Made by a program: the position numbers and the translations under genes
In this document: in pieces, positions 13,894 through 26,239 of the stretch
Position numbering within the stretch: position 1 is the stretch's first letter
Layout: each line of letters begins with the position of its first letter
Origin: Halobacteriales archaeon QS_9_68_17
GTDB taxonomy: Archaea; Halobacteriota; Halobacteria; Halobacteriales; Natronoarchaeaceae
Length of the DNA: 64,000 nucleotides
Direction: 5' to 3'
Assembly: GCA_003023565.1 (NCBI GenBank)
Contig: PXSA01000032.1
Coordinates: 64,501-128,500 of the forward strand
Notes under the pieces: generated by a model
Database searches by the model: none
What the model saw: only the letters and a program-made list of their open reading frames with translations
Told to the model about the DNA's origin: nothing

Positions 13894-15291
13894 TCACTCC
13901 CCTCTGGCCGCCTCGAACATCGCGAGGGCCGTCTCGCGGCGCTCCGCGTGGTCGACGATCGGCGCGGGGTAGTCGGGCGCGATCCGTTCGCGGTCGGCGA
14001 GCGAGAGGTCGGGCCAGTCGTGGATCTGCCCGGCGGTCGCGTCGGCGAGTTCGGGGACGTACGCCCGGACGTACTCCCCGTCGGGGTCGAAGCGCTCGCC
14101 CTGCGTCGTCGGGTTGAAGATCCGGAAGTACGGTTGGGCGTCCGTGCCGGTGGAGGCGGCCCACTGCCACCCGCCGGCGTCGTTCGCCGCGTCGTGGTCG
14201 ACGAGCCGCTCGCGGAACCAGTCGTACCCCTCGCGCCAGTCGATCAGGAGGTCCTTCGTCAGGAAAGAGGCGACGATCATCCGCACGCGGTTGTGCATCC
14301 ACCCCTCCTCGCGTAACTGCCGCATCCCGGCGTCGACGACGGGGTAGCCCGTCTCGCCGTCCTTCCAGGCGCGCAGAGCGGCCGGGTCGTCGCGCCACTC
14401 GATGGGGTTCTCGTACGCTTTGTAGTTCTCCGTCACCGTCTCCGGGTTGTAGAAGAGGACGTGCGCGTAGAACTCCCGCCAGGCGAGCTGTCGCTGGAAC
14501 TCCTCGACGGACTCCCGGTCCGCGTCGGTCTCCGCGGCGGCCGCGGCGTCCTCGGTGGCGGCGTAAACCGCTCGGACTCCGACGGTGCCCCACTTCAGAT
14601 GCGGCGAGAGCCGTGAGGTGCAGTCGTCGGTGGGGTAGTCCCGTCGCTCGTCGTACCGGTAGATAGCGCCGTCGGTGAACGCATCGAGGCGCTCGCGAGC
14701 GCGGTCCGGGTCGGCCGGCGGCACTTCGGCGTCGGGAGCGTCGAACCCGAGGTCGGTAAGCGTCGGCAACGGGTCCCCGGACACGTCGGCCAGGTCGTCG
14801 GCCGACGGCGGGTCGTACGGCGACTCCTTCTCCCGGTCGAGCCACTTCCGGCCGAAGTAGGTAAACGTCCGGTACGGGTCGCCGTCGGCGGTGGTGATCG
14901 ATCCCGGACCGTGGTGGAGGGTGTCGCGGACCGCTTCGCGGGCGATATCCGCGTCGTCGAGGGCGCGTCTGACTGCGGCGTCGCGCTCGCGGGCCAGTCC
15001 GGAGTAGTCCCGCGCCCACGTCACGCCGTCCGCGCCGTGTTCCGTCGCGAGCGCCGGCAGGACTTCCCGCGGGTCGCCGCGTCGAACGATCAGGTCGCTG
15101 CCGCGCTCCCGGTAGCGGTCGCGGAGCGACGCCAGCGCGTCGAGCATGAACGCGACCCTGGGCGGCGATCCGTGGGCCAACACGTTCCGATCGAACACGA
15201 ACACGGGGACGACCGGGCCGTCGGCCGCCGCGCGGGACAGCGCCCGGTCGTCCGCGACACGGAGGTCGCGTCGGTGCCAATGAACTCGCAT
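13894..15291 (-). CDS. phr: Deoxyribodipyrimidine photolyase (class I CPD photolyase)
   Basis: A 465-residue photolyase that uses blue light and FADH- to split cyclobutane pyrimidine dimers. The N-terminal antenna domain starts MRVHWHRRDLRVADD. The C-terminal FAD domain contains the ARDYSGLARERD region, EFQRQLAWREFYAHVLFYNP and the strongly conserved GYPVVDAGMRQL, GWMHNRVRMIVASFLTKDLL and AANDAGGWQWAASTGTDAQP blocks that bind FAD and DNA. The last of these fits DNA photolyase rather than DASH cryptochrome. ATG 15291 is chosen because it begins the canonical domain; the frame extends 13 codons further. The divergent pterin cluster nearby is interesting because some photolyases use a pterin antenna, but this link is speculative. 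Confidence 0.92.
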   Translation of the reverse strand: MRVHWHRRDLRVADDRALSRAAADGPVVPVFVFDRNVLAHGSPPRVAFMLDALASLRDRYRERGSDLIVRRGDPREVLPALATEHGADGVTWARDYSGLARERDAAVRRALDDADIAREAVRDTLHHGPGSITTADGDPYRTFTYFGRKWLDREKESPYDPPSADDLADVSGDPLPTLTDLGFDAPDAEVPPADPDRARERLDAFTDGAIYRYDERRDYPTDDCTSRLSPHLKWGTVGVRAVYAATEDAAAAAETDADRESVEEFQRQLAWREFYAHVLFYNPETVTENYKAYENPIEWRDDPAALRAWKDGETGYPVVDAGMRQLREEGWMHNRVRMIVASFLTKDLLIDWREGYDWFRERLVDHDAANDAGGWQWAASTGTDAQPYFRIFNPTTQGERFDPDGEYVRAYVPELADATAGQIHDWPDLSLADRERIAPDYPAPIVDHAERRETALAMFEAARGE

Positions 15292-15548
15292 ACGTCCGCT
15301 GAGGGCGGCACCCCTAAAAGGCCGATGCACCGCTCCGCTCGTTCGAGCGCGGCGCTCGGCCGGTCGGCGGTATCGACCGGTCGCCGAGACGGTCCGCCGG
15401 GCTGGCCCTTCGAGCGGCCGTCTGTCCCTCGCTACGGTTAGTTCTATACGCGGTCCCCCTCACGGCGGGAGCGTAACCGTTTGAGAGGACGTAACAGGAC
15501 CCGGATGCGGAGCAAGGTACAACACGCCGCCCGACGAACGCTCCCCTG

Positions 15549-16355
15549 ATGGCCACTCGCTCGGCGACCGAGAGCGCCGCTCGTCAGGCTTTCTACCGCC
15601 TCCGCCGCGTCGCGTACCGGGCGTACTACGGACTCGCGCGGCTGAACTACGAGCGGGAGGTCCTCGCGACGCCGAAGCGAACGGCCGCGGGCGCGATCCG
15701 GACGTACGACCCGCTCAACCGCCACGGGAGAGACGCCGCCCTCGCGCGCCTCGCCGAGGCGGCCGACCCGGGGGACGTCGTCGTCGATGCCGGCGCGAAC
15801 GTCGGCGTGTACGCGCTCGGGCTGGCGAGCGACCCGGGCTGTCGCGTCGCGGCGTTCGAGCCCGCGCCGGCGACGTTCCGCCGTCTCCGGGCCAATCGCG
15901 CGGCCACGGACACGGACGGTCGCGTGTCCGCCCATCGGATCGGGCTCTCGGACGAGGACGGGACCGCGGCGTTCTATCGCTCTACGTACCCCGAACTCTC
16001 CTCGTTCGAGCGGGGTAATGCGAGTCGCTGGGAGGCCGAGGCGCGCGAGGCCGTCGAGGTGCCGGTCCGCCGGCTCGACGGACTCGTCGCCGACGGTATC
16101 GTCCCGCCGCCGGACTTCCTGAAGGTCGACGTCGAAGGACACGCCCTCGAACTCCTCCGGGGCGCTCGCGAGACGCTGACGCGGCATCGGCCGGCCGCGG
16201 TCGTCGAAGTCCACCCCGTCGGCGGTTGCGACGGAGGGCGAGACAGGGGCGCGAACGGTCGCGAGGACGCCGTCCGCGCGCTGTTTCGCGACTGCGGCTA
16301 CGCGGTCGAGGCGGACGGCGACGTCTGGGTCTGCCGCCATGATGCTGAAATTTAA
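15549..16355 (+). CDS. FkbM-family SAM-dependent methyltransferase
   Basis: A 268-residue methyltransferase. The SAM-binding motif I is VVVDAGANVGVYALGLAS near residue 80. The acidic end of the second strand follows (VAAFEPAPATFRRL), and the FkbM-typical LKVDVEGHALELLRGA lies near residue 195. FkbM enzymes O-methylate polyketides, sugars or glycans; the acceptor here is unknown. It is followed 25 bases later by a CDP-alcohol phosphotransferase and further modification genes on the same strand, so it may methylate a membrane glycolipid or a secreted small molecule. Start ATG 15549. Confidence 0.87.
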   Translation: MATRSATESAARQAFYRLRRVAYRAYYGLARLNYEREVLATPKRTAAGAIRTYDPLNRHGRDAALARLAEAADPGDVVVDAGANVGVYALGLASDPGCRVAAFEPAPATFRRLRANRAATDTDGRVSAHRIGLSDEDGTAAFYRSTYPELSSFERGNASRWEAEAREAVEVPVRRLDGLVADGIVPPPDFLKVDVEGHALELLRGARETLTRHRPAAVVEVHPVGGCDGGRDRGANGREDAVRALFRDCGYAVEADGDVWVCRHDAEI

Positions 16356-16380
16356 CATCGGTCTCGCCGTACTCTGACCG

Positions 16381-17166
16381 GTGACGGGATTCCGGAACTC
16401 CGACGCGTCGCCGCGGTCGCGGCGCGCGTCGCTATGGCTTCGCTGGGCCGGAGCGGCGGCTATGGCCGCTTTCGCGCTCGGCGGGGCCGCGGCCGCTCTC
16501 GACGCTCGCTGGCCGACGGCCCGCGTCGCCCGCTGGACCGCGGTCGCAGTCGGCCTCGCCGCCTGCGAACTGGCGCTTTTCGGCTACGGCCTCGATAGGA
16601 ACCGGCGCGGCCCGGAGGCCCCGCTGTTGCCCGGTCTCGGGGTCGCCAACGCGATGACGCTCGCGCGGGGCCTGCTCGCCGCCGGCGTCGGCGGCTTCCT
16701 CCTCGTCGACGCGCCCGGCGGTCTGGTCTGGGCACCGGGCGCGCTCTTCCTGGGCGCGGTGGCTCTCGACGGCGTCGACGGCGTCGCGGCCCGCCGACTC
16801 GGTCGCGTCACGACACTCGGCTCGTTCCTCGATATGGAGTTCGACTCGCTGGGGCTTCTCGCCGGCGTCCTCGTGGGGATCGCCTGGGGCCAACTGCCGC
16901 CGTGGTACCTGCTCGCCGGGCTCGCCCGCTACGCGTTCGTCGCCGGCGCGACGCGGCGTCGCCGGCGCGGTCTGCCGGTCCACTCGCTGCCCGACAGCCC
17001 CCGGCGGCGGGTGCTCGCGGTCGCGCAGATGCTGGTAGTCGGCGGGGCGCTCCTCCCCGTCGTCGGCCCGCCGGCGACGTGGGCGGTGGCGACCGTCGCC
17101 CTCGTCCCGTTCCTCCGGGGCTTTCTCGTCGACTGGCGGGCGCTCTGTCGGGGGATGGACGGATGA
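16381..17166 (+). CDS. CDP-alcohol phosphatidyltransferase family membrane enzyme
   Basis: A 261-residue membrane protein with about six hydrophobic helices. It carries the diagnostic metal-binding pattern D-x2-D-G-x2-A-R-x8-G-x3-D-x3-D, seen as DGVDGVAARRLGRV followed by GSFLDMEFD near residues 125-150. Such enzymes transfer a phosphatidyl (in archaea, archaetidyl) group from a CDP-alcohol to an alcohol such as serine, glycerol phosphate or inositol phosphate. The acceptor cannot be read. The start is GTG at 16381. Its stop overlaps the start of the next gene (ATGA), indicating translational coupling with the DoxX protein. Confidence 0.87.
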   Translation: MTGFRNSDASPRSRRASLWLRWAGAAAMAAFALGGAAAALDARWPTARVARWTAVAVGLAACELALFGYGLDRNRRGPEAPLLPGLGVANAMTLARGLLAAGVGGFLLVDAPGGLVWAPGALFLGAVALDGVDGVAARRLGRVTTLGSFLDMEFDSLGLLAGVLVGIAWGQLPPWYLLAGLARYAFVAGATRRRRRGLPVHSLPDSPRRRVLAVAQMLVVGGALLPVVGPPATWAVATVALVPFLRGFLVDWRALCRGMDG

Positions 17167-17552
17167 CCGCGAGGGAGGCCGTCCGTCGGTGGCTCCCGCT
17201 TTTCTTCCGGGCGGTCGTGCTCGCGGTGGTCACCCCGGCCGCCGCACAGAAAGCGGTCGACTACGGCGGGCAGGTGGCGTTCTTCGAAAGCCTCGGGGTC
17301 CCCGCCCCGGCCGCGATGGTCGCCGTCGTGGGCGCGACGGAAGCCGTGACTGCGGTACTGATCGCCGTCGGTACGTTCGGGCGTCTCGCCGACCTCGTCC
17401 TCGCCGTCGTCATGGTCTCGGCCGCCGCGCTCGGCGGACCGAACGCGTTCAACCTCTCGGCGCTTGCCGCCGCCCTCGGCGTCGCCGCCCTCGGCACTGG
17501 CGCGTTCTCGCTCGGGCCGACGACGGCGGAACTGCTCGGTCGCGGGGGCTAG
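17163..17552 (+). CDS. DoxX-like small membrane protein
   Basis: A 129-residue protein with four predicted membrane helices, consistent with the DoxX/DoxD-like superfamily: a first helix (LFFRAVVLAVVTPAAAQK), GQVAFFESLGVPAP, then GATEAVTAVLIAVG. Members have roles in quinone-linked redox or respiration, but many are uncharacterised. The ATG overlaps the stop of the preceding phosphotransferase, so both are made from one message. The precise function is unknown; a link to lipid or membrane redox chemistry is inferred from the neighbours. Confidence 0.7.
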   Translation: MTAREAVRRWLPLFFRAVVLAVVTPAAAQKAVDYGGQVAFFESLGVPAPAAMVAVVGATEAVTAVLIAVGTFGRLADLVLAVVMVSAAALGGPNAFNLSALAAALGVAALGTGAFSLGPTTAELLGRGG

Positions 17553-17648
17553 AACAATGGTCGGCCAGTCCATACGGGTGTGCGTGACGAGTTCGCACTA
17601 CCACAGACACCGCACCGGATCCGACCGACGCGCGCCGTCAGCCGTCCG

Positions 17649-18668
17649 ATGACCGGCCGATCGCTTCGCTTCACCGGGCCGCGATCGGTCGAGGTCCGGG
17701 AACGACCGGTCCCCGCGCCGGACGACGGCGAGGTGCTCGTCGAGACGACCGCGTCGGGGGTCAGCCCCGGCACCGAACTGCTGGTCTACCGGGGCGAAGC
17801 GCCGACGGGGATGGAGGCCGACGAGACGATCGACGCGCTGGCTGGCGACCTCTCGTTCCCGCTGTCGTACGGCTACGCGGCCGTCGGTCGCGTCGTCGAG
17901 ACCGGGAGCGACGTGAGCGGGGAGTGGCGCGACCGCAGGGTGTTCGGGTTCAACCCCCACGAGAGCCACTTCGTCGCCGACCCGGACGACCTCGTCCCGG
18001 TCCCCGACGACCGGTCCGACGCCGAGGCGGTGATGCTCCCGAACGCGGAGACCGCGGTGAACCTCGCGCTGGACGCCCGCCCCCGCGTCGGCGAGCGCGT
18101 CGCCGTGTTCGGGCAGGGCCTCGTCGGCCTGCTGACGACCGCCGTCCTCGCGGACTTCCCGCTGGCGTCGCTTCGCACGACGGACTGCTACGAGACGCGC
18201 CGGGCGGTGTCGACGGCACTGGGGGCTGACGGGAGCGTCCCCCCGGCCAGCGACGACGCGGTCGCGCGACTGTGCGGTGACGAGGGCGACGGGGCGGACG
18301 GCGTCGACCTCGCGGTCGAGCTATCGGGGGACCCCGCCGCGCTGGACCGGGCGATCGACGTCACCGGGTTCGACGGTCGCGTCGTCGTCGGGTCGTGGTA
18401 CGGCACCAAGCGCGCCGACCTCGACCTCGGCGGGGGGTTCCACCGCGACCGGATCGAACTGGTGAGCAGTCAGGTGAGCACTCTCGACCCCGGTCTCAGG
18501 GGCCGCTGGACGAGCGAGCGCCGGATCGAGACGGCATGGGACCGGCTCGACCGGATCGACGTCGAACCCCTGGTCACTCACAGAGTGCCTCTCGAGGACG
18601 CGGACGAGGCGTACCGCCTGCTAGACGAGGCCCCGAACGAGGCGATCGGGGTCCTTCTCACGTACTGA
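17649..18668 (+). CDS. Zinc-type (MDR) alcohol dehydrogenase-like oxidoreductase
   Basis: A 339-residue medium-chain dehydrogenase/reductase. The N-terminal GroES-like domain is recognisable (VLVETTASGVSPGTELLVYRG), and the Rossmann domain has VGERVAVFGQGLVGLL with a glycine-rich NAD(P) loop. The usual catalytic-zinc Cys of the first motif is replaced (SGVSPGTE), as in the MDR subgroup seen in natural-product and polysaccharide clusters. ATG 17649 begins the conserved fold, although the frame is open from 17580. It lies 7 bases before the pterin-synthase-like gene and probably forms one operon with it, the glycosyltransferase and the methyltransferase. Confidence 0.85.
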   Translation: MTGRSLRFTGPRSVEVRERPVPAPDDGEVLVETTASGVSPGTELLVYRGEAPTGMEADETIDALAGDLSFPLSYGYAAVGRVVETGSDVSGEWRDRRVFGFNPHESHFVADPDDLVPVPDDRSDAEAVMLPNAETAVNLALDARPRVGERVAVFGQGLVGLLTTAVLADFPLASLRTTDCYETRRAVSTALGADGSVPPASDDAVARLCGDEGDGADGVDLAVELSGDPAALDRAIDVTGFDGRVVVGSWYGTKRADLDLGGGFHRDRIELVSSQVSTLDPGLRGRWTSERRIETAWDRLDRIDVEPLVTHRVPLEDADEAYRLLDEAPNEAIGVLLTY

Positions 18669-18675
18669 AGAACCG

Positions 18676-19050
18676 ATGTACACAGTCACCGTCTCCGAGA
18701 CGTTCGTCGCACAGCACTTCCTGACCGTCCCCGACCCCGGCCCGGAGGGCGACCGCCACTCGCACACGTTCACCGCCGAGGTCGAGTTCGCCGGGCCGGA
18801 ACTGGACGAGTACGGCTACCTGATCGATATCGACGACGCGGTCGCCGCCGTCGAGGCCGCCGCCGAGCGCTACCGCGACGCGACGCTGAACGACCTCGAC
18901 GGGATCGAGGGGAACCCGAGCGCGGAGCGACTCGCGGCCGCGTTCGGCGACCGCGTCGCCGACCGGGTCGACGCGCCCGCGGCCGACGCGATGACCGTCA
19001 CCGTCCACGAGGACGACGTCGCCGAAGTGAGCCACCGGCGGGAGGTCTGA
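18676..19050 (+). CDS. 6-pyruvoyl-tetrahydropterin synthase / QueD-like protein, catalytic Cys apparently absent
   Basis: A 124-residue T-fold protein. Zinc-ligand histidines are recognisable in VAQHFL and HSHTF near residues 14 and 33-35, and the family's later acidic region (VTVHEDD) is present. In classical PTPS and QueD enzymes a catalytic cysteine precedes the H-x-H motif; here the region GPEGDRHSH has none, so the chemistry is probably altered. It is tightly linked to an MDR dehydrogenase upstream and a glycosyltransferase downstream (stop and start overlap at 19047-19052). A role in making or modifying a pterin-like compound is inference. Confidence 0.82.
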   Translation: MYTVTVSETFVAQHFLTVPDPGPEGDRHSHTFTAEVEFAGPELDEYGYLIDIDDAVAAVEAAAERYRDATLNDLDGIEGNPSAERLAAAFGDRVADRVDAPAADAMTVTVHEDDVAEVSHRREV

Positions 19051-19993
19051 TGCGCGTCGGCATCGTCGTCTACGGCGACCTCGGCGGCACCTCGGGGGGC
19101 TTCCGCTACGACCGCCGCCTCGCCGCCGCGCTCCGCGACGCCGGCCACGACGTCGAACCGGTCGAACTCCCGTGGCGGTCGTGGGGGCGCGCGCTCGCGC
19201 ACAACCTGTCGCCCGGAGTCCACCGCAGTCTCCGGGGGTACGACCTGCTCGTCGTCGACGAGCTCTGTCACCCATCGCTCGCCGGCGTCGTCGGCCGCGC
19301 CGACGCGCCGACGGTCGCCGTCGTCCACCACCTGCGCTCCCGGGAGCGCCACCCGCGACCGCTCCGGGCCGCCTACCGCGCCGTCGAGCGGCGGTTCCTC
19401 CGGGCCGTCGACGCCGCGCTCTGCGTCAGCGAGGCGACCCGTGACGACGTGCGAGCGCTCGCGTCGGTGCCGACGGCGGTCGGCGACTGCCGCGGGACGG
19501 CTGGCGACTGGACGCGGTGGGCGCACTGACGGCCGACCCCGCCCACGCGGAGCGGTGCCGGCGACTGGCGGCCGACTTCGGCGTCGCAGACCGGGTGCGG
19601 TTCCGCGGGCGTCTCCCGGACGACGACCTCGCCGACGCCCTCGCGCGGAGCCACGTCCTCGCCGTCCCGTCGCGGTACGAGGGGTTCGGCATCGCCTATC
19701 TGGAGGGGATGGCGTTCGGCCTACCCGCGCTGGCGACGACCGCCGGCGGCGCGTCGGAGGTCGTCGCCCACCGCGAGACGGGGTCCCTCGTCCCGCCCGA
19801 CGACCCCGACAGGCTCGCGGCCGCGCTCCGGGCACTCCTGAGCGACCGCGACCGCCTCCGCGAGCGGAGCCTCGCGGCGCGCGACCGGTACGAGGCCCAC
19901 CCCTCGTGGGACGAGAACACGGCCGAGGCCCGGGCGTTCCTCGGCGAGGTGGCCGAGAAGCGAGCCGCGGCGGCGGACGCTTCCCGGGCGTAA
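19050..19993 (+). pseudogene. GT4-type glycosyltransferase, internal out-of-frame deletion
   Basis: The N-terminal half (19050 to about 19480) is a normal GT-B acceptor domain: VGIVVYGDLGGTSGGFRYD, then LCVSEATRDDVRALA. The C-terminal half (from about 19498, another frame) is a normal donor-sugar domain: GWRLDAVGALTADP, RVRFRGRLPDDDLADAL, and the E-x7-E type SRYEGFGIAYLEGMAFGLP. Between them the expected stretch of about 40 residues with the GN-x-x-x-RKG region is missing, and the halves are out of frame. Either the gene is dead or the assembly has dropped about 100-150 bases. It sits between the pterin-synthase-like gene and a methyltransferase. Confidence 0.8.
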
Positions 19994-20003
19994 ACCTTTG
20001 CCG

Positions 20004-20963
20004 ATGGCGTCCGACGAGTCCACCATGGACGACGCGGGAGACGACCGCCTCCGCTACCTCGCGGCGAAAGGCCCCGTCGACGACCGGGCGCGGAACCGCC
20101 GCGTCGAGGAGCGACTGGTCGAGGAGCTCCGCGGCCGCGACTCGCTCTCCGTGCTCTCGGTCGGGGCCGGCCTCGGTAACGCGCTCGACCGCCTGCTGTC
20201 GCTCCCCCTCTCGGTCGACGAGTACGTGGCCGTCGACGCGGACCCGGCCGTCGTCGACGCGGCCAGCGAACGGGTCCCCCGACGCCTCGGGACCGCGGGG
20301 TTCGAGGTCTCCGACCACGACCCGCTTCGGGTGCGCCGCGACGGCCGCGAAACGACCGTGCGCTTCGAGACCGACGACGCGTTCGCGTTCGCCGCCGACA
20401 ACCGGTCTCGGTTCGACCTGCTCGTCGGCCAGTCGTTCGTCGACCTCGTCGGCGCGGAGCGAGCGCTGGCGGACCTCACCGCCGCGCTCGCGCCGGGCGG
20501 GCACTGGTACTTCCCGATCACCTTCGACGCCGGGACGGTCTTCCGACCGGCGCTCGACCGCTCGGTGGACGACGCGGTCGAACGCGGCTACCACGACCAC
20601 ATGGACCGGGTCCCCGAGGGCGAGGGGTGCAGTCGCGCCGGCCGGAACCTGCTCGACGCGGCGCGGCGGCGCGACGACCGCACCCTGCTCGCCGCCGGGG
20701 GGTCGGACTGGGTGGTCCGCCCGCGGGACGAGAGAGCGACGAGCGAGGCGGACGGGGACGGCCCGCGCGACACCGCCTACCCCAACGACGAGGCGTACTT
20801 CCTCCGCCGTATCGTGGGGTTCATCGACGCGGCGCTGGCCGAGCGCCCCGCGGTCGACGCCGCCGACCGTGAGCGCTGGGTCCGCCGCCGCCGCGAGCAG
20901 GTCGACGCGGGCGAGTTGACGTACATCGCCCACCAGGTCGACGCGTTCGGGCGGGCGGAGTGA
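20004..20963 (+). CDS. Class I SAM-dependent methyltransferase
   Basis: A roughly 319-residue methyltransferase. SAM motif I is LSVLSVGAGLGNALDRLL near residue 50; motif II ends in AVDADPAVVDAA; a post-I acidic segment and LLVGQSFVDL follow. The C-terminal third (YLRRI-like AYFLRRIVGFID, then LTYIAHQVDAFG) is typical of methyltransferases acting on small molecules. It closes the MDR-PTPS-GT4 cluster, starting 10 bases after the glycosyltransferase stop. A TTG two codons earlier is a possible alternative start; I prefer ATG 20004. The acceptor is unknown. Confidence 0.83.
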   Translation: MASDESTMDDAGDDRLRYLAAKGPVDDRARNRRVEERLVEELRGRDSLSVLSVGAGLGNALDRLLSLPLSVDEYVAVDADPAVVDAASERVPRRLGTAGFEVSDHDPLRVRRDGRETTVRFETDDAFAFAADNRSRFDLLVGQSFVDLVGAERALADLTAALAPGGHWYFPITFDAGTVFRPALDRSVDDAVERGYHDHMDRVPEGEGCSRAGRNLLDAARRRDDRTLLAAGGSDWVVRPRDERATSEADGDGPRDTAYPNDEAYFLRRIVGFIDAALAERPAVDAADRERWVRRRREQVDAGELTYIAHQVDAFGRAE

Positions 20964-20982: not shown

Positions 20983-21372
20983 TCAGTCCGCCACGGCGAC
21001 CGCGACCTCCCGCGTCCGCGGGCCGTCACACTCCACCAGCAGCACCGACTGCCACGTGCCGAGTTCGAGGTCGCCGTCCGCGACGGGGACGCTCACATCC
21101 GGGCCGAGGAGGGCCGCTCGGAGGTGCGAGTCCGTATTACCGTCCAGCCGGTCGTGGGCGTGGCCCTCGTCCGGAACGAGGTCGCCGAGCAAGTCCGCCA
21201 CGTCGTCGCGCAGGCGCGACTCGTCCTCCTGAACCACGAGCGCGGCGGTCGTGTGCCGGACGAACGCGGTACAGACGCTGTCCGCGTCGTCGGGCACGGC
21301 CGCGGCCACGCGGTCGGTCACGTCGACGGTCGTCAGACGGGCGTCCGTGTCGACGGCGAAGCGCTCTGCCAT
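20983..21372 (-). CDS. YjbQ/UPF0047 family protein (secondary thiamine-phosphate synthase type)
   Basis: A 129-residue protein with the UPF0047 signature: FVRHTTAALVVQEDE near residue 40 and the histidine-rich DEGHAHDRLDGNTDSHLRA region. The fold binds a metal through these histidines. Some members can complement thiamine-phosphate synthase mutants in vivo, but the physiological role is unsettled. ATG 21372 is used because it gives the standard length. It is convergent with the methyltransferase, the two stops being 20 bases apart. Confidence 0.88.
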   Translation of the reverse strand: MAERFAVDTDARLTTVDVTDRVAAAVPDDADSVCTAFVRHTTAALVVQEDESRLRDDVADLLGDLVPDEGHAHDRLDGNTDSHLRAALLGPDVSVPVADGDLELGTWQSVLLVECDGPRTREVAVAVAD

Positions 21373-21404
21373 ACCGCCCACGTCGCCCGCGGCGGGCAAA
21401 AAGC

Positions 21405-22037
21405 TCAGTCGAGGCGGAGGCGGCCGACCCAGCACCGGCCGACGAGCGCAAGCGCGAGGACGACCGCGTACCCCTGCGGTTCGGTCCGGGCCGCCATGGA
21501 CGCCGGTCCCGCGAAGTGCAGGCGAGCGAGCGCGACAGTCGCGACGAGGACCGCCGCGGTGGCGAACAGCAGGCCGCCGTCGAGCGCGACCTGCGACCCC
21601 GGCGAGAGCGATCCGCGGGTCCGGTAGGCGGTGACGTATAGCGCCGCGGCCGCCGCGAGCGCGCCGTAGACCAGGCCGAGCGCGAGGTCCGGAGTGAGAT
21701 AGAGCGTCCCCGTCACCGCGTAGACGGCGACCTCGGGGGCGACGGCGATGCCGAACGCGAGGACCGGCCCGCCGTTGAACAGGGCGTACGCGAGGGGGAC
21801 GACGAACGTCGACAGCACGACGAGGAGTACGAGCGCCCAGTACAGCGTGTCGAACGCCGGCGTCATCGTCACCACGCGGACGCCGGCGACGCTCGCTCGG
21901 GCGGCCGCGGCGCTGGTCGCCGCGAGCGCGATAAGCCCGACGAGGTAGGTCACGCCGACCAGCGTTCGACGCCGCGACACGCCGAGCAGCGCCGAGTCCA
22001 GCGACGGCGTCGGGACGGACCGACGGACGTGTTTCAC
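21405..22037 (-). CDS. Haloarchaeal membrane protein of unknown function
   Basis: A 210-residue protein with about six hydrophobic helices (for example TLVGVTYLVGLIALAATSAA and FDTLYWALVLLVVLSTFVVP) and little else. I do not recognise the family. The start is GTG at 22037, overlapping the stop of the Tat-signal gene upstream, so the two are translated from one message and probably work together at the membrane. Nothing in it suggests catalysis or transport with confidence. Confidence 0.65.
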   Translation of the reverse strand: MKHVRRSVPTPSLDSALLGVSRRRTLVGVTYLVGLIALAATSAAAARASVAGVRVVTMTPAFDTLYWALVLLVVLSTFVVPLAYALFNGGPVLAFGIAVAPEVAVYAVTGTLYLTPDLALGLVYGALAAAAALYVTAYRTRGSLSPGSQVALDGGLLFATAAVLVATVALARLHFAGPASMAARTEPQGYAVVLALALVGRCWVGRLRLD

Positions 22038-22948: not shown

Positions 22949-25900
22949 TCAGGTCAGCCACTCGTCGGGCTTGGTGTCGTAGTCGACGTCGCTCGCGGCG
23001 ATGTCCTCGACCTCCTCCCATGGGAGGTCCTCGACGGTGTGTTCCTCGCCGTCGTAGCGCAGGAGCTTCCCCGTCTCCTCCGGGTCCGGCTCCTTGTCGC
23101 GGCGCTTCGCCACCTCGACGTCGTGGTCGTCGACCTCCTTGACGATGGTCATGAGGTTGACCGGCCGGCCCCATAGCTCGAAGACGCGTTCGAGCGTGCG
23201 CCTCGCCTGCCCGATGTCGAGCATCACGCCGTTGTAGTGGTGCCCGAGCAGCAGTTCGTTCCGGTTGTTGTAGTTGCCGTCGTAGACGGCGACGGTCGGC
23301 TTGCCGAAGTTGGTGAACTGCAACAGCAGTTTCTTCTTGACGTCCTCGTAGTCGGTGCTGGCGACGCGGTTCTGGCCGGCGGCCTGCGAGTACTCGTAGG
23401 TGAAGTACTCGTTCTCGTCGACGAACTCCTGCGTGAGGAACTCGTCGAGGAACGTCACGTCGTTGTGGCTCTCCCGGATCTCGCGCATCCGGTCCCAGCC
23501 GCGGGTGAAGTCCACGTCGTCGAGCGCCTCGTCGACGTCGTCGTACACCGCGTCGTCGAACATGTACCGCCCGATGTGTTCGAGGTCGTTCTGGCTGATC
23601 TGGCCGAGGAACCCGCGGTACTGGCGCTTGACCAGCGAGTAGTGCCGCCGGGCCAGCCCCTCGTAGGTCAGGACCTTCCAGGGGTGGCGGTCCACGTCCA
23701 CGGGTTCGCTGGCCCGTTCCGGACCGGCGTCCTCGGAAGCACTCCGTGCTTCTGATGTGCCCACAGGATCGCTATGCGATTCCGGGACGGCGGTAGCCGC
23801 CCCGTCGACCGCGCCCTCGCGGGCGCGGTCGAGCGCCTCGCGGTCGACGTACTCGTCCGGCAGTTCCGCGACCGCATCGAGCGAGTCCGAGTCGATCGAG
23901 TTCAGCGCTTCCGGCGGCTCTAACGCCTTCAGCACACGCTCGAAGTCGACGGTGTCGGTGAAGTTCCGCCAGGTGATCCCCTCGACGCGGAGCAGGGTCT
24001 CGACCACTTCGCGGCGGTTCGTCGTGTTCTCGACGTACTCCCACAGTTCCTTGCCGAGGCTGTACGGGTTGAGGCCGGGCGACCCGAGGACGCGAGCCAT
24101 GTGGTCGGCGTAGCTGACGAACTCGTCGGCGTCGGCGAAGGCTTCGCCGCTCATCATGGTCGACTCCCAGTAGGAGTTGTGATTGACGAACCCCGCGCCG
24201 GCGTACCGGTGAGTCTCCTCGACGGAGATGTCGTACACGGTGCCGGTGCTCTCCTCGATAGCGACGACTTCGTCGGTCCACGACTCGTCCTCGTCCCACT
24301 CGATCCCGTCGAGGTACTCCTGGATCGCGGACGCTTTCTCCGGGAATCCGAACCCCACGCGGTCGACGAACCGCTCGGCCGACTCGCCGGTAACGTGGAC
24401 GTGATAGCAACCATCGGCCTGTTCGCGGCGTCGGCTGAGGATCCCGAAGTTCGTCAGGAGCAACTGAACGGTTTCGCTCATCGGCTCGCTTTTCGTGCTG
24501 AGGACGATCCCCTGATCGCCGGCGTATCCGTCTGCGTCGAACAGACCACGCAGGAACTCCGCGACGACCGCTTTCGGCGAGCGGAGGACGGGACCGGGTA
24601 CCGACTTTCGGTCGGCCGCTTCCCCGTCCGGGAGACCGGTCACTTCGACCAGGAGGTCGACGAGATGGTCCGAGTACACGTGAGCCCGCCACCGCGACCC
24701 GTCCTTCTCGACGGTCGGGTCGACGCCGAACAGTTCGTCCGCGAGTCCGGCGAAGTGGTCGGCGTGGCGGCGGTCCCCGTTCGTGAAGCCGACGACGCCA
24801 GCGGCGGACGAGACGTGTCCGTCGCCCACGAGCAGCCCCAGGAAGCGGCCGAACTCCTCGGAGACCGTTTCCGGGACTCGAACGGGGTCGCGCTGCGTGA
24901 GACGTTGGTCTTCGCCGTCGTACGCCGACAGTGCGGCATCGATAGCGTCGGCTCTCTCTGCCCGCCCCGTACGCCGGTATCGCATCACCGTCCACACCGA
25001 GACGCCAGCCTCGTCGGCGACGTCTTGTAGGGTGACGTGTTCCTGCGGCGTCCAGTCGACCGGAACCGGTCGCGACGGCCAGACGCCGTTTCCGCCCGTC
25101 ACCTCGATCCCGTCCCCGACGTCCAGTTCGTCGAGCCTGACCCACGACCCGTCGGGTCTCCGGACCCGGTGATTGTTCGATCCCGTGAGTTCGAACCCCC
25201 GACGGGTCTCGACCGTAACCGTGTCGTGGTCGGAGATGACGTTCGAGTCGTACACATCCCGCGTCGCTTCGCCGTCGGAGACGGGGACGTGTCGCCCGAC
25301 GACTTCCTCCATCGGAACGAGACCGTCGGCCGTAAACACGAGGGTGTCCGGCGCGACGCAGGCCCACCCCTCGTTCATCACCTTCGTCATCTTCTGGGCG
25401 GCAAAGTAGTACGCTTCCGCGCGGAGCATGTCGAGCACGTCGCGCTGCCACGGCTCCATCTCCGTCGCCTTCTCGGCCTCCGCCTCGTACTGCTTGCCGT
25501 GTGCCCGGAGGAACGCGAGCACGTCCTTCTGGGGCTCGTCCGGGAGCGAGACCGGTTCGCCCTCGTCGCCCTGCCGTTCGAGCCACTCGTCGCTGAACAC
25601 CTCCTCGCGCACCTCGTCGGAGAGTTCGAGTTCCGAGAGCTGCTTGCTCAGGTCGTCGTCGGCCTCCGTCTCGGAGGTCCCGCCGGGGAGTATCTCGGGG
25701 TCGAACACCTGATGCTGGTCGATGTTGTCCTCCAGCGTGAGCAGGTTGTCTATCCACCGTTCGACCTCCGCGCGGTCGATGTCGGGGTCCTGCATGTACT
25801 CGTCGATGGTGCGGGCGTGGCGCTCCAGCATCGCCGCGGCGTCGAGGTCGTCGGCGAACATGCCGAACCACTCGTTGTTGGCGAAGAAGTCGGCGTGCGC

Positions 25901-26239
25901 CTCGACGTGGGTGACCACCGCCTTCTGGTCGGCGAGGTCGTTCGATTCCTGCAGGAACGCATGCGAGGGGTTGTCGTTGTTGACTATCTCGAACGCCTTG
26001 CCGCCGCCGTAGCGGTCCTGCTTGCGCTGCTTGTCGTACTTCATCCCCCAGCGCCAGTGCGGGTAGCGGCGCTGGAACCCGTCGTAGGCGATGAGCTGGT
26101 TCATCTCGTCGTAGTCGACGATCCAGTAGTTCACCGGGTACGGTTCGAGACCGAGGCGCTCGGCCAGTTCGTTGGCGTCGTCGACGGGTTGCTGCAGGTC
26201 GGCGGCGATCCGTCGCGCCTCGTAGCGGTCGAAGCTCAT
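22949..26239 (-). CDS. SpoVR family protein interrupted by an intein
   Basis: The 1096-residue precursor contains a SpoVR/YcgB protein of 701 residues once the 395-residue intein (residues 294-688) is removed. The mature sequence joins as KVMNEGWA-SYWESTMM, restoring the conserved SpoVR block. Other SpoVR blocks are present: YPHWRWGMKYDKQR near residue 45, AHADFFANNEWF near 130, and HHYNGVMLDIGQARRTLERV near the end. A variable Glu/Ala-rich insert lies about 130 residues after the splice point. SpoVR proteins are co-expressed with PrkA kinase and YeaH in starvation or sporulation; their biochemical function is unknown. The gene starts 16 bases after yeaH and is last in the operon. Confidence 0.92.
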   Translation of the reverse strand: MSFDRYEARRIAADLQQPVDDANELAERLGLEPYPVNYWIVDYDEMNQLIAYDGFQRRYPHWRWGMKYDKQRKQDRYGGGKAFEIVNNDNPSHAFLQESNDLADQKAVVTHVEAHADFFANNEWFGMFADDLDAAAMLERHARTIDEYMQDPDIDRAEVERWIDNLLTLEDNIDQHQVFDPEILPGGTSETEADDDLSKQLSELELSDEVREEVFSDEWLERQGDEGEPVSLPDEPQKDVLAFLRAHGKQYEAEAEKATEMEPWQRDVLDMLRAEAYYFAAQKMTKVMNEGWACVAPDTLVFTADGLVPMEEVVGRHVPVSDGEATRDVYDSNVISDHDTVTVETRRGFELTGSNNHRVRRPDGSWVRLDELDVGDGIEVTGGNGVWPSRPVPVDWTPQEHVTLQDVADEAGVSVWTVMRYRRTGRAERADAIDAALSAYDGEDQRLTQRDPVRVPETVSEEFGRFLGLLVGDGHVSSAAGVVGFTNGDRRHADHFAGLADELFGVDPTVEKDGSRWRAHVYSDHLVDLLVEVTGLPDGEAADRKSVPGPVLRSPKAVVAEFLRGLFDADGYAGDQGIVLSTKSEPMSETVQLLLTNFGILSRRREQADGCYHVHVTGESAERFVDRVGFGFPEKASAIQEYLDGIEWDEDESWTDEVVAIEESTGTVYDISVEETHRYAGAGFVNHNSYWESTMMSGEAFADADEFVSYADHMARVLGSPGLNPYSLGKELWEYVENTTNRREVVETLLRVEGITWRNFTDTVDFERVLKALEPPEALNSIDSDSLDAVAELPDEYVDREALDRAREGAVDGAATAVPESHSDPVGTSEARSASEDAGPERASEPVDVDRHPWKVLTYEGLARRHYSLVKRQYRGFLGQISQNDLEHIGRYMFDDAVYDDVDEALDDVDFTRGWDRMREIRESHNDVTFLDEFLTQEFVDENEYFTYEYSQAAGQNRVASTDYEDVKKKLLLQFTNFGKPTVAVYDGNYNNRNELLLGHHYNGVMLDIGQARRTLERVFELWGRPVNLMTIVKEVDDHDVEVAKRRDKEPDPEETGKLLRYDGEEHTVEDLPWEEVEDIAASDVDYDTKPDEWLT
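24176..25360 (-). other. Intein with LAGLIDADG homing endonuclease inside SpoVR
   Basis: A 395-residue intein. It starts with Cys1 (CVAPDTLVFTADGLVPMEEV), has a block B region with GSNNHRV, and ends VYDISVEETHRYAGAGFVNHN with Asn as last residue and Ser as the first C-extein residue. This is a standard class 1 self-splicing layout. Two LAGLIDADG-type motifs (FLGLLVGDGHVSS and LRGLFDADGYAG) indicate a homing endonuclease, and an HTH-like segment (TLQDVADEAGVSVWTVMRYR) probably aids DNA recognition. All motifs look intact, so both splicing and homing are likely. The insertion lies in the most conserved SpoVR block, as is usual for inteins. Confidence 0.93.

Follow-up and report, generated by a model that had tools for sequence, protein, structure and literature searches.

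We analysed a window of 64,000 nucleotides from Halobacteriales archaeon QS_9_68_17 (positions 64,501 to 128,500 of contig PXSA01000032.1, here contig C32), whose genome is a 2.88 Mb draft, 89% complete, in 42 contigs. The subject is a gene cluster in this window that surrounds a PTPS-like T-fold protein. An earlier note on the same DNA had described a co-directional cluster of seven genes, and all seven were found, closely spaced on one strand. We propose with moderate confidence that they are the haloarchaeal form of one biosynthetic pathway common to archaea and bacteria, in which a GTP-derived pyrimidine of the riboflavin type would be decorated and linked to the membrane. The genes, in window positions, are as follows.

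15549-16355, + strand: FkbM-family methyltransferase, an accessory cluster member (Pfam PF05050, 87 bits)
16381-17166, + strand: CDP-alcohol phosphotransferase (Pfam PF01066, 60.9 bits)
17163-17552, + strand: DoxX-family membrane protein, a local, non-conserved addition (Pfam PF07681, 41.3 bits)
about 17649-18668, + strand: MDR dehydrogenase without the usual zinc ligands (family profile matches, alignment of cluster MDRs)
18676-19050, + strand: PTPS-like T-fold protein, with the QueD catalytic triad gone and Glu24 in the Cys column (Pfam PF01242, 79.9 bits)
19050-19529, + strand: GT4 glycosyltransferase, N-terminal part, frame broken (Pfam Glyco_transf_4, 45.3 bits)
19517-19993, + strand: GT4 glycosyltransferase, C-terminal part, in another frame (Pfam Glycos_transf_1, 99.6 bits)
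about 19998-20963, + strand: class I S-adenosylmethionine methyltransferase, of a subfamily of its own common to the archaeal and bacterial clusters (profile matches, hhalign)
13894-15330, opposite strand to the cluster: photolyase (gene list)

The GT4 gene named in the earlier note is broken. Its halves lie in different frames, and 142 bases are absent near position 19482 in comparison with another genome of the same genus (G533), in which the GT4 frame is whole. As the source genome is an incomplete draft in many contigs, the break reflects either true decay or an assembly error. G533 carries the same seven genes in an order identical to that of the window. A scan for promoters detected no sigma-70-like site, in line with the archaeal origin of the DNA.

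The PTPS-like protein is encoded in 171 of 292 haloarchaeal genomes, the other 121 being without the gene. Within the genus of the window it was present in the source genome and G533, and not in G031, G053 or G128. Neighbouring genes were detected by tblastn, with thresholds set by hand, at the best 80 of 192 loci found with family-derived patterns (the named loci), a set that leans towards close relatives. Sixty-two of these loci were fully covered, with at least 5.5 kb on each side of the PTPS-like gene. There, the MDR gene was found at 56, the methyltransferase at 48, GT4 at 36 and the CDP-alcohol phosphotransferase at 33; rarer partners were ArfA (17), FkbM (2) and DoxX (0). The MDR gene was the immediate upstream gene on the same strand in 51 of the 62. 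Because the neighbourhood is conserved to this extent, the gene set of the window is more than a chance assembly. The gene order that the earlier note had suggested checking across haloarchaea was thus found to be conserved, and it extends to bacteria; the unconserved neighbourhood that would have spoken against a pathway was not what we saw.

Across all 80 named loci, the MDR gene lay near the PTPS-like gene at 69, the CDP-alcohol phosphotransferase at 43 and FkbM at 5; FkbM is also present at the G533 cluster. FkbM, which had been counted as part of the set, therefore belongs to it at some loci. DoxX, counted likewise, does not: DoxX relatives were found near the cluster at none of the 80 named loci and were seen in G533 only, and DoxX was rejected as a core member. 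Other genes observed near the cluster at named loci were a fused Gfo/Idh oxidoreductase-aldo/keto reductase, or a relative of it (19 of 80, for example L046:6086-8071), a second GT4 gene (13 of 80), and a DUF7475 small membrane protein on either strand (36 of 80, for example L089:3595-3963).

The PTPS-like subfamily and its active site

The identity of the PTPS-like protein was examined by profile scores, phylogeny and a census of active-site residues. The source genome has a separate QueD (G000:C22:26475), and the window protein scored 38.4 bits against the QueD NCBIfam equivalog, whose cut-off is 89.25. A tree separated 50 cluster proteins (29 haloarchaeal, 15 bacterial and 6 from other archaea) from 16 QueD-like proteins with support of 100/94; it was built on few columns, has weak inner forks, and used 22 of the 81 haloarchaeal sequences from the named loci and the window. 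A first alignment comprised the window protein and 24 of 29 other family loci (L009, L010, L021, L022 and L026 omitted). The census comprised 125 rows: 88 from haloarchaea, 6 from other archaea and 15 from bacteria, plus 16 QueD-like ones; the truncated row L151 was dropped from both tree and census.

In the window protein, H14, H28 and H30 are kept and the Cys before H-x-H is absent. The earlier note had seen both features; it had missed that E24 occupies the Cys column. The QueD Asp-His pair (DHxxL) is replaced as well, by R67-D68. At position 24, the Cys of CxxxHGH in QueD, all 94 archaeal cluster members have Glu and all 15 bacterial ones have Ala, against Cys in 16 of 16 QueD-like proteins. 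At position 68, Asp was found in 87 of 88 haloarchaeal rows, Tyr in 15 of 15 bacterial rows and His in 16 of 16 QueD-like rows. The QueD catalytic Cys and His are thus replaced in 109 of 109 cluster members. The zinc histidines H14 and H30 are present in 88 of 88 haloarchaeal rows and H28 in 85, the remaining three having Asn in its place; counting all archaeal cluster members, H30 is kept in 94 of 94 and H28 in 91. All 15 bacterial members have Ala at position 30 and so have lost one zinc His. All 125 rows share Glu84 and Glu112, the latter occupying the pterin-anchoring Glu position of the family.

An AlphaFold2 model of the window protein (pLDDT 94.9, pTM 0.87) found its closest solved fold in SCO6650 of Streptomyces coelicolor (PDB 3d7j; Z 18.0, root-mean-square deviation 1.7 A over 124 residues), followed by PTPS and QueD structures at Z of about 16. 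SCO6650 is a member of this subfamily: the cluster protein of S. fungicidicus matches it over its full length (266.7 bits), and the PTPS-like protein of L117 is nearly identical to it. In SCO6650 and the bacterial members, H-x-H reads HGA and Glu24 is replaced by Ala, whereas the zinc His and the Glu are retained in the archaeal ones.

These results show that the PTPS-like protein belongs to a distinct subfamily that includes SCO6650 and is not QueD. It resembles QueD in fold (Z 16.2), zinc His and ring-anchoring Glu, but differs in having neither the Cys nor the Asp-His pair and in forming a separate clade; a QueD identity was ruled out on the score below the cut-off, the separate clade and the replaced triad. 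With the triad replaced in the cluster members and Glu84 and Glu112 unchanged, the protein has kept its fold and ring pocket and has probably lost the QueD chemistry. In public records, PTPS-like genes of this subfamily are mostly labelled 6-carboxytetrahydropterin synthase (queuosine) despite the absent triad, a common annotation that is contradicted by the active site of the subfamily and corrected here.

Related clusters in bacteria and other archaea

Bacterial clusters were reached by searching plasmid records with the window MDR. The bacterial PTPS-like protein matches 20 plasmid records, all of which were scanned for partner genes; they include near copies, namely two from Methylosinus trichosporium OB3b and two from S. 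anthocyanicus. MDR was present in 16 of the 20 records, GT4 and the methyltransferase in 15 each, RibD_C in 13 and the CDP-alcohol phosphotransferase in 10. Other partners were RibA and a flippase-like protein (9 each), cytochrome b561 (7), FkbM (5) and a creatininase-family protein (2). The plasmid hosts are rhizobia, Rhodobacterales, Methylosinus, a purple sulfur bacterium, Streptomyces and Microbacterium. The fullest clusters, those of Peteryoungia and Rhizobium sp. SL42, encode flippase-like, FkbM, CDP-alcohol phosphotransferase, RibA, MDR, PTPS-like, GT4, methyltransferase, RibD_C and cytochrome b proteins. Sulfatase genes were observed beside some bacterial clusters.

In a phylum-wide survey, 47 of 294 genomes matched the family profile at 1e-10 or better. 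Thirteen of these lie outside the class, and 11 of the 13 were examined. Two of the loci (L139 and L140) encode RibA, MDR, PTPS-like and GT4 proteins, L139 additionally a methyltransferase and a creatininase, and four more (L141-L144) have MDR with the PTPS-like gene. The remaining five (L145-L149) are QueD-like and have no core partners. At six control loci, the QueD locus of the source genome (L150) and five other QueD-like loci, MDR, GT4, methyltransferase, ArfA and RibA were found at none; one of the six has a weak creatininase match.

Of all partners of the PTPS-like gene, the MDR recurs most constantly, counting both the named loci and the bacterial records. Invariant residues in 86 cluster MDRs are Y73-G74-Y75, H103, S248-W249, Q274-V275, R285 and R291; the usual MDR zinc ligands do not belong to this set. 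When 35 of the 86, including 18 of the 69 haloarchaeal MDRs, were placed in a quick tree with five other MDRs, cluster and other MDRs separated with support of 95, the outgroup branches being long. The best NCBIfam match of the window MDR is BchC, yet its 71.6 bits fall far under the cut-off of 291.25, and chlorophyll genes were not recognised among the recurrent neighbours.

The methyltransferases gave a comparable result: 18 archaeal and 10 bacterial cluster members were matched by hhalign at 99.7% over 252 columns. The AlphaFold2 model of this protein (pLDDT 90.8) matches many small-molecule methyltransferases, the best (Z 18.8) being an uncharacterised Methanosarcina mazei protein, so that a substrate class is not evident; a sequence search of the PDB returned no match. 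The CDP-alcohol phosphotransferase aligned with six members from bacterial clusters at 99.2% (37% identity across 170 columns), and the window FkbM shares 31% identity with that of Peteryoungia over 161 columns. On the basis of the PTPS and MDR trees and the two hhalign comparisons, the core genes of the archaeal and bacterial clusters share ancestry.

Linkage to GTP-opening enzymes and the proposed pathway

Clues to the starting compound came from two unrelated enzymes that open GTP. ArfA is GTP cyclohydrolase III, and its gene is present in 287 of 292 haloarchaeal genomes. In 18 of the 80 named loci, from at least 10 genera, it is found no more than 6 kb from the PTPS-like gene and always on the same strand, 16 times upstream of MDR and twice downstream of the methyltransferase; clustering additionally placed ArfA at L057, which the tblastn threshold had missed. 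With one to two copies per about 3 Mb, we estimate that chance would link well under one locus. Two ArfA genes occur in 40 of the 292 genomes, and 34 of these 40 have the PTPS-like gene, compared with 171 of 292 overall (Fisher p 2e-4, uncorrected for kinship).

In the bacterial clusters and at L139 and L140, the place of ArfA is taken by RibA, which is unrelated to it. All eight RibA proteins checked, from bacterial and two archaeal clusters, have the three zinc Cys. At E. coli position 105, nine of eleven RibA proteins have Tyr and those of two Streptomyces clusters have Met. Both Met-RibA clusters carry a creatininase, and the seven alphaproteobacterial RibA proteins have Tyr and no creatininase. 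The S. coelicolor RibA SCO6655, with Met at this site, reportedly releases the formylated product FAPy; if that holds, the Streptomyces creatininase would be a FAPy deformylase, by analogy with the archaeal ArfB. Against the ArfB NCBIfam model it scored 37 bits (cut-off 180), its best match being MftE at 141 (cut-off 172). The RibD-family cluster proteins have the reductase domain only, without the deaminase, in three of three scanned. Of the 16 MDR-bearing records from bacteria, 14 have a linked RibA or RibD_C gene.

The presence of two unrelated enzymes for the same kind of step beside one core argues well for a pathway that starts at a riboflavin-type pyrimidine. A diaminopyrimidine of this type is probably the precursor, in place of dihydroneopterin triphosphate. 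The haloarchaeal route would draw on ArfA and on unlinked genes, since RibA, RibD_C and creatininase are linked at none of the 80 named loci. The earlier note had read the cluster as making a glycosylated, methylated pterin or a decorated lipid. That direction fits the gene content; what changes is the entry, which becomes a GTP opening of the riboflavin type (ArfA, RibA, RibD_C), and the substrate, which is probably not the usual one of PTPS.

The observed basis of the proposed pathway is its gene content, the conservation and shared ancestry of its core, the loss of the QueD triad, and the linkage to two unrelated GTP-opening enzymes; from these we infer its substrates, reaction order, product and membrane link. 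In a first step, ArfA or RibA would open the imidazole ring of GTP to give the formylamino- or diamino-pyrimidine nucleotide known from riboflavin synthesis; where the product is formylated, a creatininase-family enzyme would take off the formyl group. A RibD_C-type reductase would then open the ribose to a ribityl chain. In a third step, the MDR and the triad-less T-fold protein may act as a pair on this 2-amino-4-oxo-pyrimidine. The MDR would oxidise or reduce its side chain, and the T-fold protein would bind the ring by Glu112, with Glu84 nearby, while a second ring is closed or reshaped. To judge from their families, GT4 and the methyltransferase would decorate the product, and the CDP-alcohol phosphotransferase, with an accessory flippase-like, cytochrome b561, FkbM or DoxX protein, would provide a lipid or membrane link. 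The product is best pictured as a glycosylated, methylated, membrane-linked pterin or pyrimidine.

A bolder version, which we put forward as a speculative and rather unlikely one, is that the cluster divides the GTP cyclohydrolase I reaction among several enzymes and yields a decorated, lipid-anchored pterin serving as a membrane cofactor of archaea and bacteria. RibA or ArfA would open the ring and the RibD-type reductase would turn the ribosylamine into a ribitylamine. The MDR would oxidise C2' of the chain, the redox pair thereby producing the 1-deoxy-ketose that otherwise comes from Amadori rearrangement. The triad-less T-fold protein, a fold relative of GTP cyclohydrolase I, could then close the pterin ring, before glycosylation, methylation and lipid anchoring.

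Several observations weigh against the proposed pathway. MDR was undetected in 6 of the 62 fully covered loci (L033, L035, L039, L043, L067 and L095). In 4 of the 20 bacterial records (L118, L119, L127 and L195, all Streptomyces) the PTPS-like gene stands alone, and rib genes were not found in bacterial records L124 and L128. RibA, RibD_C and creatininase were found near none of the 80 named haloarchaeal loci, and ArfA is unlinked in 62 of them and in the window; the source genome has a single ArfA copy, on contig C9, and RibD_C was not seen in its cluster. The bacterial members have neither Glu24 nor the full set of zinc His, which makes a single common reaction uncertain. The link between Met and creatininase in Streptomyces comes from two clusters and from the product reported for SCO6655, and the RibA of L139 has Tyr yet a creatininase about 2 kb away. 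Finally, a passage in PMC8305020, citing Phillips 2012, states that arfA deletion makes Haloferax volcanii a riboflavin auxotroph, so that ArfA linkage could merely mirror the need for riboflavin. In this species the MDR, PTPS-like and GT4 genes would lie beside arfA, to judge from the Haloferax loci L077, L078, L108 and L112. As a side observation, the solitary Streptomyces genes, of the same subfamily, adjoin genes for cupin, MBL-fold or MEKHLA-domain proteins.

The proposed pathway resembles riboflavin synthesis in its opening enzymes, as enzymes of the same kinds as ArfA, RibA, the ArfB-type creatininase and RibD_C/ArfC are encoded in or beside the cluster. It differs in that lumazine and riboflavin synthase are not listed in the annotated bacterial stretches, and MDR, T-fold, GT4 and methyltransferase genes accompany the opening enzymes instead. 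The enzyme families and the SCO6650 structure were known; the cluster would represent an unassigned biosynthetic pathway assembled from such families, with a T-fold subfamily that has an active site unlike the named ones. A literature search, with most subscription journals outside its scope, found no paper on the cluster, which is weak evidence of absence. A five-gene core is kept in archaea and in Alphaproteobacteria, Gammaproteobacteria and Actinomycetes, in many cases on plasmids. This indicates a widespread small molecule, and we found no printed name for it. The partner genes tell which precursor to supply and which enzymes to combine, and the reaction of the orphan SCO6650 family thereby becomes directly testable.

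Alternative explanations and neighbouring genes

The cluster might instead decorate a polysaccharide or membrane lipid, with the PTPS-like protein and MDR making or modifying a sugar or headgroup and no pterin involved. We consider this unlikely, though it accounts for the recurrence of the CDP-alcohol phosphotransferase (43/80), the Gfo/Idh-aldo/keto reductase fusion (19/80) and the second GT4 (13/80) at named loci, and for the flippase-like genes (9/20) and occasional sulfatases on the bacterial side. Without a GTP-derived pyrimidine, it is hard to see why ArfA should be linked at 18 of 80 loci and RibA or RibD_C should be linked in 14 of 16 MDR-bearing bacterial records, and the ring-anchoring Glu is invariant.

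The loss of the triad in all members, with one zinc His also gone from the bacterial ones, would suit a non-catalytic sensor or scaffold for a pterin or flavin precursor that controls MDR or ArfA. SCO6650 is itself said to be without zinc, triad and PTPS activity. This role appears improbable, as the archaeal zinc His (H30 94/94, H28 91/94) and the invariant Glu in the Cys column look like a maintained active site.

More improbable still is a riboflavin or F420 operon effect, in which ArfA would be linked for its own sake and the MDR-PTPS-GT4-methyltransferase unit would be an unrelated neighbour. The linked Haloferax arfA is indeed a riboflavin gene, according to the same passage in PMC8305020. 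However, ArfA occurs in two arrangements, upstream of MDR and downstream of the methyltransferase. Genomes that carry the unit show an enrichment of second ArfA copies, and in bacteria and two archaea outside the class it is the unrelated RibA that adjoins this unit.

A PTPS-III-type enzyme making 6-hydroxymethyl-dihydropterin for folate is very improbable here. A Glu stands in the Cys column of the archaeal members and may act in place of the Cys, as in Plasmodium PTPS, and the fold matches that of the PTPS-III and Plasmodium type at Z 14.3-14.6. PMC2229834 describes the Cys-to-Glu change in the Plasmodium enzyme as conferring 6-hydroxymethyl-dihydropterin formation, and PMC3223725 describes PTPS-III as standing in for FolB in some bacteria. 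The archaeal Glu, however, is at -4 relative to the first His of H-x-H, against -3 in Plasmodium FRETLH, the Asp-His pair is gone, Ala takes the place of the Glu in bacterial members, the gene is absent from 121 of 292 haloarchaeal genomes, and folate genes were not recognised among the recurrent partners. The folate reading was set aside on the Glu spacing, the lost pair and the patchy genome distribution.

The hint in the earlier note that the cluster might make a pterin antenna for the photolyase encoded directly upstream has next to nothing in its favour beyond that position: the best NCBIfam match of the photolyase is of the 8-hydroxy-5-deazaflavin (8-HDF) type (433.5 bits, under the cut-off of that model), the photolyase is outside the conserved neighbourhood, the DNA match to G533 starts at window position 15514, past the gene, and the idea was rejected on the type of match and the unconserved position.

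On the other side of the cluster, a YjbQ/UPF0047 (secondary thiamine-phosphate synthase) gene at 20983-21435 on the - strand is convergent with it. Further along, at 22949-26239 on the - strand, lies a gene for a SpoVR-like protein of 1096 residues that appears to be interrupted by a LAGLIDADG intein; its Pfam matches are SpoVR, LAGLIDADG_3 and Intein_splicing, the last of these under its cut-off.

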